64,000 nt of DNA, taken from the NCBI GenBank assembly GCA_029785685.1, contig JAFLZE010000001.1, positions 2,282 through 66,281 of the forward strand, read 5' to 3'. A program made the position numbers and the translations under genes. Of this stretch, positions 24,494-30,536 are shown piece by piece. The notes beneath the pieces were generated by a model, which saw only the letters and a list, made by a program, of their open reading frames with translations, had not been told where the DNA came from and did not search any database. How positions within the stretch are numbered: the stretch's first letter is position 1; each line of letters opens with the position of its first letter. The DNA is from Nitrososphaerota archaeon. Its GTDB lineage: Archaea; Thermoproteota; Nitrososphaeria; Nitrososphaerales; UBA183.

Positions 24494-26281
24494 CTAAAAC
24501 CCGTACATCGGGTCCGCCGGCGACTTTATCGCAATGACTTCGTCCAGCACATGCTTCTCGTCCTCAGTCAGGGAACCGAGGAGCTTCGTGCGGAGGATCT
24601 TCGCCTCATGGCTGCGCGGCATGGCATAGAGGATGTCGTTCTCCTTCACCTGCCTCCCGAGGGTCGGGCCCTGGACCGAGATGGCCACCTCCTCCCCCTC
24701 CTTCGCCTCGCCGACCGCTTTGCCGTTGTCCTGCACCTGCTCGACGGTCCCTACCTCGGTCCCTGCCGAAGACATCAACCTAACCTTGGGGCGGAGCCGC
24801 CCGGCGACCACTTCGACCCCGAACACGGCTGGGTCGTTCCGTCTGAAGAACGCTCCCGGGAGGACCTTGAGCTTGCATGGCCGCGTCAGGCTCGAAAGAG
24901 CGGCCCTCTCGTCCGCATCCTTCTTCGCAGTCGCCCAGCTGGCATAGTTGTCGATGACCTCATAGATGATCGAGGAGATGAAGACCGGGCTCGAACCTGC
25001 GTGCTCCTTGGCCTCGGGGAGGACCTTCGAATCGAAGCCGAGTATCGCCCCGAGGTAGGGGTCGTGCTCTCCGACCACCTGGGCGGCGACGATGTCGTTC
25101 TTCGAGATGTCCCCTATGTCTGCCTCCCTCACCGGGACACCCCTCTCCTCCAGCATCCTCAGGAGAGCTTCCAGGCCGCCTATGCTCCCCGCCTTCACTA
25201 TCACCCCCATGTTGTCTGTCTTGACCACGATGTTGGAGAGCTCCTTCTCCATCTCCGACTTGAGGTCCTGGAACTGCCTCTCGGTGGTGAAGGACGCCAC
25301 CAAGGTGCCTGCCACCACCCCTCCGAGGTCTGGGGAGACCAGTTTTACTCCCGCCGCGGCGTAGGCGGCGGTCACGGCGGTGAACTTGTCCCTGGGGTCT
25401 CGCATTTCGTCCAGCGGCTTGGGCATGAAAAGCGCCTTCACCTTGGACTTGAACGCGCCGTCCCTGCGGACCAGCGATATCGAGTCCCCCACGCTCAGGG
25501 TCCCCTCGGTCAGGATCACGTTGGCCGTCTGGCCGATGCCCACCTCCTCCTGAAGCTCCAAGATTATCCCGCGAGCCGAAGGAGCGTCTCCTACCCTCAG
25601 CTTCCCCTTCAGGAACTGCTGCGCGAGGCCGATCAGCATGGCCAGCATCTCCGGCATCCCCACTGGCGCCCTCGCCGAGACAGGGACTATGGACACCTGC
25701 TGGCGGAAGTCCTTGACTCTATAGTAGGCATCAGACTGGAAGCCGAGGCGGTTGAGCCCCCCGACCACGTTATACAGGCGTTCCTCTAACTCGTCCCCCC
25801 AGGTCGGGGCCTGGTCCTTCATCACCTGCAGGAGAGGACCCTTGCTCCCCTTCTTCCAGCCGCTGATCATGTCTATCTTGTTCAGCGCGACCAAAAAGGG
25901 GACGTGCCTCTGCTTCAGGATGTCAATGCTCTCTAGGGTCTGGTTCTCCAGCCCCTTCAGAACATCGACGACGAGTATCGCGATGTCTGCCGCCGACCCT
26001 CCTCTGAGCCTGAGGTTGGAGAAGACTGCGTGACCAGGTGTGTCTATCATGAGAAGCCCTGGTATCTGGAGCTCGCCCCCCGCCCTGTCCAGAAGAGGCC
26101 CGCATATCGTCCTCAGCGTCTCCATAGGGAAGAAGCTCGCCCCTATCTCCTGCGTTATCCCGCCCACCTCGCGGGCCTGGACCCCGGTCCCTCTCAGGCA
26201 GTCAGCGATTGAAGTCTTGCCAGAGTCTACGTGCCCCAGGATGACGACTACAGGCTGCCGTATGCGGCTTTGCTCTGACAT
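24494..26281 (-). CDS. infB: Translation initiation factor aIF5B
   Basis: 595 residues, the archaeal aIF5B length. GTPase motifs: GHVDSGKTSI (P-loop), DTPGHAVFSNLR (G3) and ALNKIDMI (G4). Domain II, the domain III with KTDNMGVIVKAGSIGGLEALL, and domain IV (CKLKVLPGAFFRRNDPAVFGVEVVAGRLRP) follow. It promotes ribosomal subunit joining. Unlike the aIF5B genes of some methanogens and thermococci, it has no intein. Confidence 0.96.
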   Translation of the reverse strand: MSEQSRIRQPVVVILGHVDSGKTSIADCLRGTGVQAREVGGITQEIGASFFPMETLRTICGPLLDRAGGELQIPGLLMIDTPGHAVFSNLRLRGGSAADIAILVVDVLKGLENQTLESIDILKQRHVPFLVALNKIDMISGWKKGSKGPLLQVMKDQAPTWGDELEERLYNVVGGLNRLGFQSDAYYRVKDFRQQVSIVPVSARAPVGMPEMLAMLIGLAQQFLKGKLRVGDAPSARGIILELQEEVGIGQTANVILTEGTLSVGDSISLVRRDGAFKSKVKALFMPKPLDEMRDPRDKFTAVTAAYAAAGVKLVSPDLGGVVAGTLVASFTTERQFQDLKSEMEKELSNIVVKTDNMGVIVKAGSIGGLEALLRMLEERGVPVREADIGDISKNDIVAAQVVGEHDPYLGAILGFDSKVLPEAKEHAGSSPVFISSIIYEVIDNYASWATAKKDADERAALSSLTRPCKLKVLPGAFFRRNDPAVFGVEVVAGRLRPKVRLMSSAGTEVGTVEQVQDNGKAVGEAKEGEEVAISVQGPTLGRQVKENDILYAMPRSHEAKILRTKLLGSLTEDEKHVLDEVIAIKSPADPMYGF

Positions 26282-27009: not shown

Positions 27010-27942
27010 TCATGTCGGAACGGTCCCCCCGAGATGTCTCATCCAGTGCTGGGCCTCCACGATGAGCCTCTGGCCGAAGTCCTTCGGGTGCGGGACGAAA
27101 CCCTCGAGCGCCTTTGCCAACGTTTCAGGGCCCAGGTTGGCCAAGTCTTCCAGGTTCACGGCCCCGAGGCCGGTGGCCCCCCTCAGCCTCACCCCTATCT
27201 CCAGCTCGTTTGTCTTGATCGCCTCGAGCTCCTTCTCGTCAGCGAAGGCGCTGGACAAGAGCGGGATGTCACCCGTCAAGATGATCTCCTTGACAGACCG
27301 CCCCTTCGCCTTCATCGCGGCGTAAAGGTGACTCGGGGGAGCCACCTCCTCCAGAGAGAGGGCGGCGAACAGGGTCCTGGCCATGGGCATCTTCCTTATC
27401 CCCCTTCGCTCCGAAATCACCCTCTTCAGGTCGACGGAAGCGATGAACGGGAAGACGTAGTCGACGCTCTTCGTCACCTTCTTCGCCAGGTTCTGCCTGA
27501 ACCAGAGCCGCATGGCATCCTGGGACTCGAGGCCCTGCGGCGTCCTCGTCGGCGGGAGCACCCAGACCCCCGGCTGGACTGCCTTGAACCCCATTTCGAT
27601 GAGCCTGTCCTTGAAGACGGTCGAATCGTTCTTCTTCTTTGTCTTCTCGTAGGACTTGAGCAGAAGGAGGGACCTCACCTCATATGGATAGGACCTGATG
27701 AGCTCCTCGGGGGTCAGCCCTGAGTTCTTGAGCTGCCAGTCGAGGCGCACCATCAGCTTCTTGTACACCGCGTCGCTGTCTTCGAAAGTCGCCGGGACTG
27801 AAAGGTCCTCTCCGGCCACCTCAATCCTGCTTATGACAGCCAGTATCAGGTCTTCGTCCTTGGGCGAACCCGGCCCGGATAGCCTGCCGAGAGGGACCCT
27901 CACCTTCTCGAAGAATCCGGCTATCCGCTTTACCGCTGACAA
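27010..27942 (-). CDS. Protein of unknown function, third gene of the tubulin operon
   Basis: 310 residues from a TTG start; I do not recognise the family. It appears soluble, with no signal peptide or membrane helix, and mixes helical segments (LDWQLKNSGLTPEELIRSYPYEVRSLLLLKSYEKTKKK) with a short strand-rich part (FKAVQPGVWVLPPTRTPQ). The C-terminal 70 residues (NLEDLANLGPETLAKALEGF) look helical. It is on the same strand as the tubulin gene, 54 nt after the 178-residue gene, so it is probably a partner or regulator of the filament. Function is not assignable. Confidence 0.7.
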   Translation of the reverse strand: MSAVKRIAGFFEKVRVPLGRLSGPGSPKDEDLILAVISRIEVAGEDLSVPATFEDSDAVYKKLMVRLDWQLKNSGLTPEELIRSYPYEVRSLLLLKSYEKTKKKNDSTVFKDRLIEMGFKAVQPGVWVLPPTRTPQGLESQDAMRLWFRQNLAKKVTKSVDYVFPFIASVDLKRVISERRGIRKMPMARTLFAALSLEEVAPPSHLYAAMKAKGRSVKEIILTGDIPLLSSAFADEKELEAIKTNELEIGVRLRGATGLGAVNLEDLANLGPETLAKALEGFVPHPKDFGQRLIVEAQHWMRHLGGTVPT

Positions 27943-27996: not shown

Positions 27997-28533
27997 CTAG
28001 GAGAGCTTCCGTTTGAGCGCCTTCCTCAGGTCCTCGAAAGCATCCACTAGCTTCTTCTTGGCGAAGTACTCGTCTGATTCCGCGACCACCACCCTGTCTT
28101 CGGAGATTGTCACGTCCCCCAAGCTGAGCGGGGACGGAATGCCGAGCATGGCCGAGAAAGCCTCGACCGACTTCGGGAATGTCGCACCGGATCTGAACCT
28201 GAAGGTGAAGGAACGCCCCCCAGACACAGGTATAGGGTCCAGAGGCACTATTAGTCGGTCGGAGCTGAGCCCGGTGAACATCTGGCCGTGGACTTCTCGG
28301 ATGGATGCCAGTACGTCCCCCCGCTCCCTCTTCAAGGCAGCCGCCCTGTCTTGGTGCCCCGGGTCGGACCAGTCGAGGCCGATCAGGGCGTAGAATGCCT
28401 GGTCCTTCTCGTTCCTCTTTGGGTCCTGCGTGATCTCCTGTGACAGCACATCGAGTTCGCTGTCGATGGTCTTGAGCCTCTTCTGCTCTTCCAGTAACCT
28501 ACCGGCTGCAACCTCCAGTTCTGTGAGGTTCAT
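27997..28533 (-). CDS. Protein of unknown function with N-terminal coiled coil, second gene of the tubulin operon
   Basis: 178 residues from an ATG only 7 nt after the tubulin stop, implying coupled translation. Residues 1-35 (ELEVAAGRLLEEQKRLKTIDSELDVL) and about 65-85 predict a coiled coil. Residues 90-150 look like a beta-rich domain (LIVPLDPIPVSGG, SFTFRFRSGATFPKSV). The C-terminus is a basic helix (KKLVDAFEDLRKALKRKLS). No known family is recognised. The layout would suit a filament-binding or adaptor protein (inference). Confidence 0.7.
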   Translation of the reverse strand: MNLTELEVAAGRLLEEQKRLKTIDSELDVLSQEITQDPKRNEKDQAFYALIGLDWSDPGHQDRAAALKRERGDVLASIREVHGQMFTGLSSDRLIVPLDPIPVSGGRSFTFRFRSGATFPKSVEAFSAMLGIPSPLSLGDVTISEDRVVVAESDEYFAKKKLVDAFEDLRKALKRKLS

Positions 28534-28540
28534 CTCTTAC

Positions 28541-29905
28541 CTAACCCAGGTGGCTTGAGACTTCGATGACCGCTTTCTTGAATTCCTCGTGCGTCAGTTC
28601 CCTGTTCTGGTACTCGTCCTTGTAGGAGTCCCAGGCGTCCTCGGCTTCCGTGACAAAGGGCAGGAGCTTCTTCCCTGTCCCCTTCACATTGAGAAGGACG
28701 AGGGCCGACGCGGGCTCGTTGGTCATGGTGGGTATCTTGACGAAGATCACTCTCTTGTCCTGGATGCCGTACTTTTCGTTCAGTATCTTCTTGAAGAACT
28801 CCCTCTCTTCAGCATCCACGCTCCCGGCGCACTTTATCAGGACGCAGGCTGAGTCAGTCTTCCCCTTCTCCATCTCCCCCTCCTGTTCGAGGTTGAAAAG
28901 AAGCCCATCGTTCCCCTCTTCGAACGCCTCCTCGATGGACTTTATCTCCGAACTCCCTTTCGGGACCAGAGGCAGGAGCCATGGCACCACGAACTTCGGC
29001 TTGCTCGCAGCCAGCCAGGTCCTGTAGTTGGACATGTCCCACTCCGTCTCGCGTATGAATGAATCCATGAACTCGGCTATCACGTGGGCAGCCAGCAGGT
29101 TCTTGTTTCTATAGTCGTGCCAGCCGACGCGGATTTGCTTCGGGAGCTCGTCCACGATGGAGGACCGCGCGTCGAGCTGATTCTTCAGCCTGTCCGCCTG
29201 GAACCTGAGCTCTTTGTTGTCCATCAAGATTGGGGCATCAGAGTACTTGATCTGATAGGCCAGGTTGAGAACGATGCTGATGTGGGCGGGCCCGTAGATG
29301 ACAGGGTCCCAGCCGAACTCAGGGAGCACCCCGAAGGTCGCGATGGTGGCGTGCCCGAGGGCGCTGTTCCCCTTGACGTAGGACATGAACTCAGATGAGA
29401 ACGAACCCCCCGTCCCTCCACCCATGCTGAACGGGACTATGAAACCCCTCACCGGTTCGGGCGAGATCGCCTGTATCCTAGACGCGATGTCCTGCTTCCC
29501 AACGATCTCGTTCCTGAACCTGCTCCTACCCTCGGCCCAGTTCCTCGCAGCCCCGCCCAGGCCGTAGACAGCGTGCTTGTCCTTCATGGCGAAGAGCTGC
29601 GGATATGACTGCAGGATGAGGTTCGCCGAGCGTGGGTCGAGGTCCACGAGCAGCGCCCTCGGCACGAGGGGCATCTCCCCCTTCCGCAGCGAAGCGCCGA
29701 ACCTGAGGATCGTGCTTCCATACCTCCGGAGGACTTCCAACTGCTGCTTCTCTCCTTTCAGGGTCGGCGCGGTGGGGTCCGCCCCCACGTCAATCAGCAC
29801 CCAGCGATAGGCTTCGGCGCCGATACCTACTCCCGCATGGCCCATGCAAGCCATGATGACCGGGTTAGGTGCAAGCGGAGCTTGGTTCGCTGCCCTGAAC
29901 GCCAA
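28541..29905 (-). CDS. Tubulin-superfamily GTPase, artubulin-like
   Basis: 454 residues, the length of eukaryotic tubulin. Tubulin-type landmarks occur in order. MGHAGVGIGAEAYRW (21-35) matches tubulin GQAGVQIGNACWE. ALLVDLDPR (84-92) matches VFVDLEPT. YPQLF (101-105) and GAARNWAEG (118-126) match YRQLF and AANNYARG. PFSMGGGTGGSFSS (158-171) matches the GGGTGSG loop. YSDAPILMDNKE (221-232) matches HSDCAFMVDNEA. FtsZ instead has GGAGGNAV at the first site, so this is closer to tubulin. The T7 region reads EWDMSNYRTWL; where alpha-tubulin has the catalytic Glu there is Asn (293). The TTG start has GGGAGGT upstream. Confidence 0.9.
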   Translation of the reverse strand: MAFRAANQAPLAPNPVIMACMGHAGVGIGAEAYRWVLIDVGADPTAPTLKGEKQQLEVLRRYGSTILRFGASLRKGEMPLVPRALLVDLDPRSANLILQSYPQLFAMKDKHAVYGLGGAARNWAEGRSRFRNEIVGKQDIASRIQAISPEPVRGFIVPFSMGGGTGGSFSSEFMSYVKGNSALGHATIATFGVLPEFGWDPVIYGPAHISIVLNLAYQIKYSDAPILMDNKELRFQADRLKNQLDARSSIVDELPKQIRVGWHDYRNKNLLAAHVIAEFMDSFIRETEWDMSNYRTWLAASKPKFVVPWLLPLVPKGSSEIKSIEEAFEEGNDGLLFNLEQEGEMEKGKTDSACVLIKCAGSVDAEEREFFKKILNEKYGIQDKRVIFVKIPTMTNEPASALVLLNVKGTGKKLLPFVTEAEDAWDSYKDEYQNRELTHEEFKKAVIEVSSHLG

Positions 29906-29927
29906 CGGTTTACCTCCCCTCCCATCT

Positions 29928-29935
29928 TTTTTATA
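29928..29935. promoter_or_regulatory. Central TATA element between the tubulin operon and the VWA gene
   Basis: TTTTTATA (embedded in CTTTTTTATACG) is nearly midway between the two divergent TTG starts: 27 nt to 29905 and 29 nt to 29961. Read on either strand it could serve as a TATA box, so both genes may be expressed together. Confidence 0.55.
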
Positions 29936-29960
29936 CGTTTGTCAGTTTCTGGGTGCAGGT

Positions 29961-30536
29961 TTGAGCTACGACGAATCCAAGGCTAAGGACGTCCTCTTTG
30001 TGATAGACGGCTCAAGGAGCATGGGAGGGAAGTTGCACTCTTCCGGCATGAGCAAGATGAAGATCGTCAAGACCGGACTGTTCAACTTCGTGGCTGAGTA
30101 CTGGCCGGTCTCCTACTTTCCGTGGCCGATCAGGATGGGGGTGACGTTCTATAGGTTGCTGGGGACCCCAGGTTCCACTCAGATCGAAGTGGTAGTCCCC
30201 CTGAACCCTGCTCCGGCCTCGCTGGAGCTCTACCGGCTGGAGGACCTGCAGTGCAAGGGCGGGAGCCCCCTGGTCGACGCGGTCAAGTACGGCATCGAGA
30301 ACATCTCCGACTCCATCAGGAAGGAGAAGGTCATCAAGCTGATCAGCGACGGAGGGAACGACAGGGAGCCCATCAAGACCATATCCGAAGAGTTGAAGAT
30401 ATCCCCGGTCGAGGTGGACGTGATAGAGCTCTCCAACGAGGCATCGAAAGAGCTCAGGGACATCGCCACCCTCACCCACGGGACGTACACCAGGCCACAC
30501 AACCTGGCTGATTTCGAGAAGGCTATCCGAAGTTAG
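29961..30536 (+). CDS. von Willebrand factor A-domain protein, divergent partner of the tubulin operon
   Basis: 191 residues from a TTG at the right distance from the TATA element. The MIDAS metal site is intact: DGSRS (D16-x-S18-x-S20), GGSPLVDAV with Ser in the Thr position, and LISDGGND. The whole protein is one VWA domain, with no signal peptide and no membrane anchor, so it should act inside the cell. VWA proteins bind partners through the chelated metal. Pairing of a tubulin-superfamily gene with a VWA gene recalls the FtsZl-1 system proposed from genome context in other prokaryotes. Confidence 0.85.
   Translation: MSYDESKAKDVLFVIDGSRSMGGKLHSSGMSKMKIVKTGLFNFVAEYWPVSYFPWPIRMGVTFYRLLGTPGSTQIEVVVPLNPAPASLELYRLEDLQCKGGSPLVDAVKYGIENISDSIRKEKVIKLISDGGNDREPIKTISEELKISPVEVDVIELSNEASKELRDIATLTHGTYTRPHNLADFEKAIRS

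Follow-up and report, generated by a model that had tools for sequence, protein, structure and literature searches.

Does the archaeal locus studied here encode a true tubulin and, if so, of which family and together with which other genes? The locus lies in a stretch of 64,000 nucleotides from a Nitrososphaerota archaeon (contig JAFLZE010000001.1, positions 2,282 to 66,281; hereafter the window), for which a preliminary description, made from the letters of the DNA, had proposed that a tubulin-family protein occurs here in an archaeon not among the usual hosts and represents a further lineage of archaeal tubulins. The protein is a real tubulin, yet of a known family, the artubulins, and the advance lies in a deep and broad distribution, an invariant T7 region and a constant partner gene. 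The gene and the parts of its product are as follows.

28541..29905, minus strand: artubulin gene, 454 residues, TTG start at 29905, from the list of open reading frames (ORFs)
Residues 14-230 of the product: tubulin-type GTPase region
Residues 284-298 of the product: T7 region, IRETEWDMSNYRTWL
Residues 352-454 of the product: tubulin-like C-terminal half, with two predicted helices at its end

Identity and distribution of the protein

The six tubulin landmarks named in the preliminary description were recovered in the order given there, at residues 22, 87, 101, 118, 162 and 221, in the minus-strand ORF of 454 residues, while the plus-strand reading of the same interval holds five stops. The protein matches the Pfam family Tubulin (PF00091) with an E-value of 7.6e-11 (43.1 bits, cut-off 33), 157 database proteins match it at an E-value of 0.001 or better, and the guanine-plus-cytosine (GC) content at the three codon positions (0.57/0.40/0.81) has the pattern of a coding frame, so that the resemblance to tubulin is not due to chance. 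Among the 120 homologues listed the identity to the window protein is 51-93%, mostly over the full length.

In profile comparisons with hhalign, the tubulin set was matched with a probability of 99.5 (E 1.1e-22, 389 columns, ~23% identity) and FtsZ with a probability of 50 (E 1.6e-4, 179 columns). For the C-terminal part, the comparison with tubulins extended over 183 columns (E 1.9e-4) at a probability of only 22, and that with FtsZ over 27 columns, which is noise. PF00091 was the sole Pfam match up to an E-value of 1, Tubulin_2 giving none; for CetZ, the evidence is limited to this lack of any other Pfam match. Structure prediction gives a tubulin-like fold that extends through the C-terminal half. 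By sequence, the Asgard tubulins AtubA/B come nearest among solved structures, and Asgard tubulins are also among the closest by fold. With a tubulin profile far above FtsZ, no Tubulin_2 match and this fold, the proposed tubulin-family membership stands.

The family within the tubulins was assigned by neighbourhood and identity. Scanning genomes with an alignment of 20 members gave 85 relatives, from which 80 loci were kept. Four Nitrosarchaeum loci (L096, L098, L099, L102) carry a family member beside genes for Snf7, dCMP deaminase, B-family DNA polymerase and triosephosphate isomerase (Snf7, an ESCRT-III gene, in L102 by Pfam at 3.3e-7, above the cut-off; the other three names read from the sequence), the same genes and order as in the published artubulin neighbourhood (PMC3349469; this and the other publications are cited from parts of their text). 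Moreover, the Nitrosotenuis protein of L078 is 79.4% identical to L102 and 77.2% to L096, and the published identity between Nitrosotenuis and Nitrosarchaeum artubulins is ~79% (PMC3835317). By these two lines of sequence evidence the window protein is assigned to the artubulin family, the comparison being with the loci collected here rather than with the published accessions themselves.

A protein identical to it (100%) occurs in the Nitrososphaerota metagenome-assembled genomes FK5_bin.27 and FK2_bin.173 and in 'archaeon LSA3.bin14'. The closest named records thus belong to the Nitrososphaerota (Thaumarchaeota), a phylum already known for its artubulins (PMC3349469, PMC3835317), so that the host cannot be called unusual at this level, and the idea of a further lineage gives way to membership in the artubulin family itself. 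The known range is extended by the host, which belongs to a lineage in which no amoA was found and whose protein shares 54-55% identity with members from Nitrosarchaeum.

Artubulin was found in 87 of 400 Nitrososphaeria genomes from four families, namely 66 genomes in f2, 17 in f1 (the family of the window; two only partial), three in f49 and one in f45, a count that leaves out weak matches in unrelated frames of 903 and 904 residues in G320 and G361. A phylum-wide draw gave 23 genomes of 398, all of the same order. The amoA gene was detected in none of 13 f1 genomes (nine with artubulin) and none of three f49 genomes and is present in the lone f45 genome, showing that artubulins occur in lineages lacking detected amoA. 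Published artubulins come from Nitrosarchaeum and Nitrosotenuis, and horizontal transfer was considered for their scattered occurrence (PMC3349469, PMC3835317, PMC9871819); among the papers listed by two further literature searches, no title or abstract opening dealt with artubulin in Nitrosotalea or in amoA-less lineages.

For the question of descent, artubulin and aIF5B trees were compared for 27 genomes (30 were searched and three gave no full-length aIF5B). The trees share 15 of 24 splits, eight of them with support of at least 95 in both, and show one well-supported conflict. In the aIF5B tree with outgroups the families that bear artubulin (f1, f49, f45, f2) are scattered across the ingroup, interspersed with f3, f44 and f46, which have none; f3, f45, f44 and f2 group together with a support of 95, whereas the deepest split of the ingroup reaches only 51. 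Occurrence in four families, of which two lack detected amoA, and a tree mostly following the marker make an old, mostly vertically inherited tubulin in this phylum likely, for which descent with losses would be the simplest reading.

The T7 region and the partner gene

The T7 region reads RETEWDMSN[YF]RTWL in all of the 120 listed homologues. Site columns were taken from an alignment with 20 artubulins and 21 tubulins, with which the hhalign alignment, read by eye, agrees; the aligned positions were assigned to the nucleotide site (T2, T4, T6, H7) as in tubulins generally. Where tubulins have Asn-x-Asp-x-x-Glu/Lys, artubulin has E288-x-D290-x-x-N293, with the Asp kept. N293, which is invariant in the 20 aligned artubulins and is replaced by Glu or Lys in the sampled tubulins, stands in the place of the catalytic T7 acid, which is Glu254 in alpha-tubulin. 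The departure of the T7 loop from the catalytic Glu, pointed out in the preliminary description, is therefore real and invariant in the family. It does not decide tubulin membership, as the Lys found in the sampled fungal beta-tubulins is likewise not the catalytic acid. Artubulin retains the T4 motif GGG(T)G, Asn230 in T6, Asn269 and Tyr265 in H7 and the T2 motif DL(D/E)P. The family shows long invariant stretches, and GGGTG is present in 117 of the 120 listed homologues, the exceptions being a fragment, a deletion and a one-residue variant.

The artubulin gene is followed on its own strand by a second gene.

27997..28533, minus strand: partner gene, 178 residues, 7 nucleotides downstream of artubulin, no Pfam family at the cut-off

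In the model of the partner, which is confident (predicted local distance difference test, pLDDT, 91.3), residues 3-50 and 60-91 form a long helical hairpin and residues 109-177 a small alpha/beta domain; no convincing structural relative of the partner was found. Across the loci the partner is a predicted coiled-coil protein of ~181 residues. It lies directly downstream of artubulin on the same strand in 76 of the 80 loci (in one of these, L069, with its first 44 residues only before the contig ends), and in the remaining four the contig stops at or within the tubulin gene. Where both ORFs were called, the gaps are mostly 2-18 nucleotides, a few starts overlapping. At the level of genomes, the partner was found in all 87 with artubulin; in 84 the pair lies on one contig and strand with the matches 5-21 nucleotides apart (tables compared by eye), and in G394, G452 and G463 each of the two pieces comes within 60 nucleotides of a contig end, as expected of a split pair. 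The ancestor of the order probably already had the pair. The published passages on artubulin neighbourhoods, covered as running text, mention Snf7 and do not name the downstream partner; coiled-coil neighbours of artubulin are mentioned in general terms (PMC9871819).

Two artubulin-partner pairs each were seen in G281 (L145, L146) and in G543, by duplication or in mixed bins. Furthermore, two records named 'Gammaproteobacteria bacterium' (L071) and 'bacterium' (L047) hold artubulin loci that share neighbours with archaeal records, the shared neighbour of L047 being the partner; these records look mislabelled or mixed.

A proposed filament system and its alternatives

The reading that we prefer, with modest confidence, is that artubulin and its coiled-coil partner are encoded by a likely operon and constitute a predicted filament system that binds guanosine triphosphate (GTP). 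Artubulin would bind GTP, as suggested by the invariant glycine-rich T4 loop, T6 Asn and H7 Asn, and it would stack head to tail in the manner of tubulins. With an invariant Asn where the catalytic T7 residue would stand, GTP is probably hydrolysed slowly at the interface or with the help of another residue, which would result in stable filaments rather than in quick turnover. The partner would bind artubulin, probably through its long helical hairpin, and would serve to anchor or control the filaments, or to cap or bundle them. As the system is patchy in its occurrence it appears dispensable, which argues against an essential division ring; a likely job would be in cell shape, cargo positioning or as an aid to Cdv/ESCRT-III division, not as the division ring itself. 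The constant partner gene offers a concrete handle for a biochemical test of filament formation.

Several observations weigh against this proposal. The Pfam domain Tubulin_C (PF03953) gave no match in the window protein up to an E-value of 1, and the confidence of the tubulin model is modest (pLDDT 66.6 for the best of five, 40.5-53.2 for the others). Some nucleotide-site positions constant in the sampled tubulins are altered, namely Gln to His23, Asn to Arg121 and Gly to Ser/Ala168, and the acids E288 and D290 adjoin N293 and could join in catalysis. Within the window's genus 13 of 24 genomes have artubulin, within its family 17 of 34. Snf7 was undetected in the nearest genome and in three more of the 17 searched, and the published passages covered report no experiment on an artubulin, its function and localisation being called untested (PMC3835317). 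Moreover, 41 of the 400 genomes have a partner homologue without detected artubulin: six in f3 with nearly full-length matches, 31 in f44 with short ones mostly covering the C-terminal two thirds, three with a broken copy (G256, G277, G365) and G427, in which the contig stops just upstream of the partner. The f3 and f44 homologues examined, among the 37 of these two families, stand alone in unrelated neighbourhoods, so that the partner can act without a tubulin; it probably predates the pair or is more general than it. A hidden tubulin beside lone homologues was found neither with the artubulin profile among the matches listed for 19 loci nor by tblastn with five artubulins in L206-L227. In the f3 loci L206-L211 the homologue adjoins a radical-SAM-like gene (by eye).

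A first alternative, which we regard as unlikely, is that artubulin is a non-polymerising switch, a GTP-binding monomer or dimer that passes a signal to its partner without forming filaments. An invariant T7 region that nevertheless has Asn in place of the catalytic Glu would suit such a role, as would a constant neighbour, perhaps a binding partner, and insertions of 12 and 17 residues relative to AtubB, which end at residues 73 and 255. However, the tubulin fold is predicted to persist in full, its C-terminal half included, an invariant T7 stretch is the expected look of a conserved longitudinal contact, and the fungal beta-tubulins sampled have Lys at the same T7 position, beta-tubulin being a protein that polymerises.

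Turning from the switch to the pairing on which the filament proposal depends, it is distinctly improbable that the partner is a mere operon neighbour with an unrelated task, for example in ribosome or RNA biology, and that artubulin works alone. The 41 genomes with the partner homologue and no detected artubulin speak for it, as does the finding that most f44 homologues examined (most of L212-L222) lie near Rpp21-, S19e- and Nep1-like genes, read by eye. Against this, the pair is kept in 76 of 80 loci despite differing outer genes, no artubulin genome was found to lack the partner, and in three artubulin-less genomes of families having the pair the partner is broken by stops or a frameshift or left as a fragment (L224 in G365, L225 in G256, L226 in G277), which suggests joint loss.

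That artubulin is a decaying, non-working relic of FtsZ, as proposed for the Nitrosopumilus maritimus FtsZ Nmar_1262, is very improbable. Several artubulin-family proteins carry the source name 'cell division protein FtsZ', and the N. maritimus FtsZ showed no polymerisation in yeast (PMC3684127). The names had made identity with Nmar_1262 a candidate, which was rejected: Nmar_1262 has a loop of the AGKAGSA type and belongs to a separate family of ~316 residues, whereas the window protein has GGGTGGS and 454 residues. Moreover, the match to tubulin is far better than that to FtsZ, and the conservation of GGGTG in the listed homologues and of long invariant stretches is at odds with decay. The nearest genome (G001) encodes at L142:1437-2519 a second member of the tubulin superfamily, an FtsZ-like protein of 361 residues with a GGATGSG loop.

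In a tree whose tubulins came from Asgard archaea, bacteria and, as beta-tubulins, fungi (alpha, gamma and CetZ sequences being absent), with FtsZ as sole outgroup, artubulins form a clade (support 100, as an unrooted split) and the sampled tubulins another (92), with long stems between them; all that the tree establishes is that artubulins fall outside the group of these sampled tubulins. A recent acquisition from a eukaryote or an Asgard archaeon, to which the nearest solved structures by sequence might point, is hardly credible in view of the two separate clades, an artubulin tree that mostly tracks the marker tree across deep families, and a gene GC content (0.593) that fits that of the window (0.607).

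Returning to the filament system, a wider version of it is possible, though doubtful: the pair would be an ancestral two-protein cytoskeleton of the Nitrososphaerales that predates the split between lineages with and without amoA and has lost T7-coupled hydrolysis, assembly and turnover having become dependent on the partner, and tubulin-type filaments would have arisen in archaea outside Asgard and been inherited since.

Surrounding genes and known systems

Next to the pair, the window holds the following features.

27010..27942, minus strand: third gene of the strand run, 310 residues, no Pfam family at the cut-off
29844..30536, plus strand, divergent: von Willebrand A domain gene (PF00092, 1.1e-7)
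29927..29935, minus strand: putative TATA-box-like TATAAAAAA, then a GGAGG-rich stretch, ~30 nucleotides before the TTG start, by eye

The cluster of the 310-residue gene recurs in 16 of the 80 loci, all close relatives, and that of the von Willebrand A gene in 15, likewise in close relatives only; the listed ORF of the latter overlaps the artubulin start, and its true start therefore probably lies inside that ORF. The outer genes vary by clade, with nucleoside diphosphate kinase and aIF5B in the relatives of the window, TPR and antiporter genes in Nitrosotalea, Nre in Nitrosotenuis and Snf7 in Nitrosarchaeum (names read from the sequence, save Snf7, TPR and Nre). Snf7 gave no match among the three genes beside the window artubulin. 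The artubulin of Nitrosotenuis uzonensis is likewise not near Snf7 (PMC3835317), and thus Snf7 adjacency is not a defining feature of artubulins. A scan for bacterial promoters and terminators gave nothing above chance, the window has no tRNA and no Rfam match at the gathering score, and PHROGs and NCBIfam searches gave nothing useful. The aIF5B (IF2) genes of L164-L167, from the genomes of L040, L047, L048 and L049, hold an insertion of ~500 codons, placed after residue ~27 and containing intein-like text (e.g., TTPEHKF); the aIF5B gene of the window (24494-26281) is intact.

Among known systems, the closest are the artubulins of Nitrosarchaeum limnia and koreense (Yutin and Koonin, 2012) and of N. 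uzonensis (2013), which belong to the same family; from those of Nitrosarchaeum the window protein differs in the degree of identity given above, in a host lineage without detected amoA and in the lack of a Snf7 neighbour. The family may bear on tubulin origins, as the preliminary description supposed; according to the passages covered, its position was never fully resolved in published trees (PMC13394414), and a 2026 Asgard study assembled its own artubulin set. Deep-branching artubulins such as those supplied here (this lineage, f49 and G281) could break the long branch that leaves the family unplaced in tubulin trees. The Asgard tubulins AtubA/AtubB and OdinTubulin are alike in fold and, for AtubA/B, in sequence, the identity to the tubulin set being the ~23% noted above. 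They differ in the T7 region, where their N and E/K correspond to E288 and N293, and Pfam lists Tubulin_C for full-length Asgard tubulins, in contrast to artubulin. The bacterial tubulins BtubA/B, which form mini microtubules (PMC13394414), group with the other sampled tubulins and not with artubulin. The thaumarchaeal FtsZ of the Nmar_1262 type comes from the same phylum and is a separate family with AGKAGSA-type copies of ~316 residues; the Nmar_1262 protein is the one that did not polymerise in yeast, and artubulin is not mentioned in the part of that paper's text covered here (PMC3684127).

The arrangement of the pair may also have a counterpart outside its own family. The window's pair may be likened to TubZ/TubR and similar cytomotive pairs, in which a tubulin-like GTPase is encoded beside a small partner. 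In contrast to TubZ/TubR, the artubulin partner is a predicted coiled-coil protein outside any Pfam family at the cut-off, and the pair stands among ordinary chromosomal genes.
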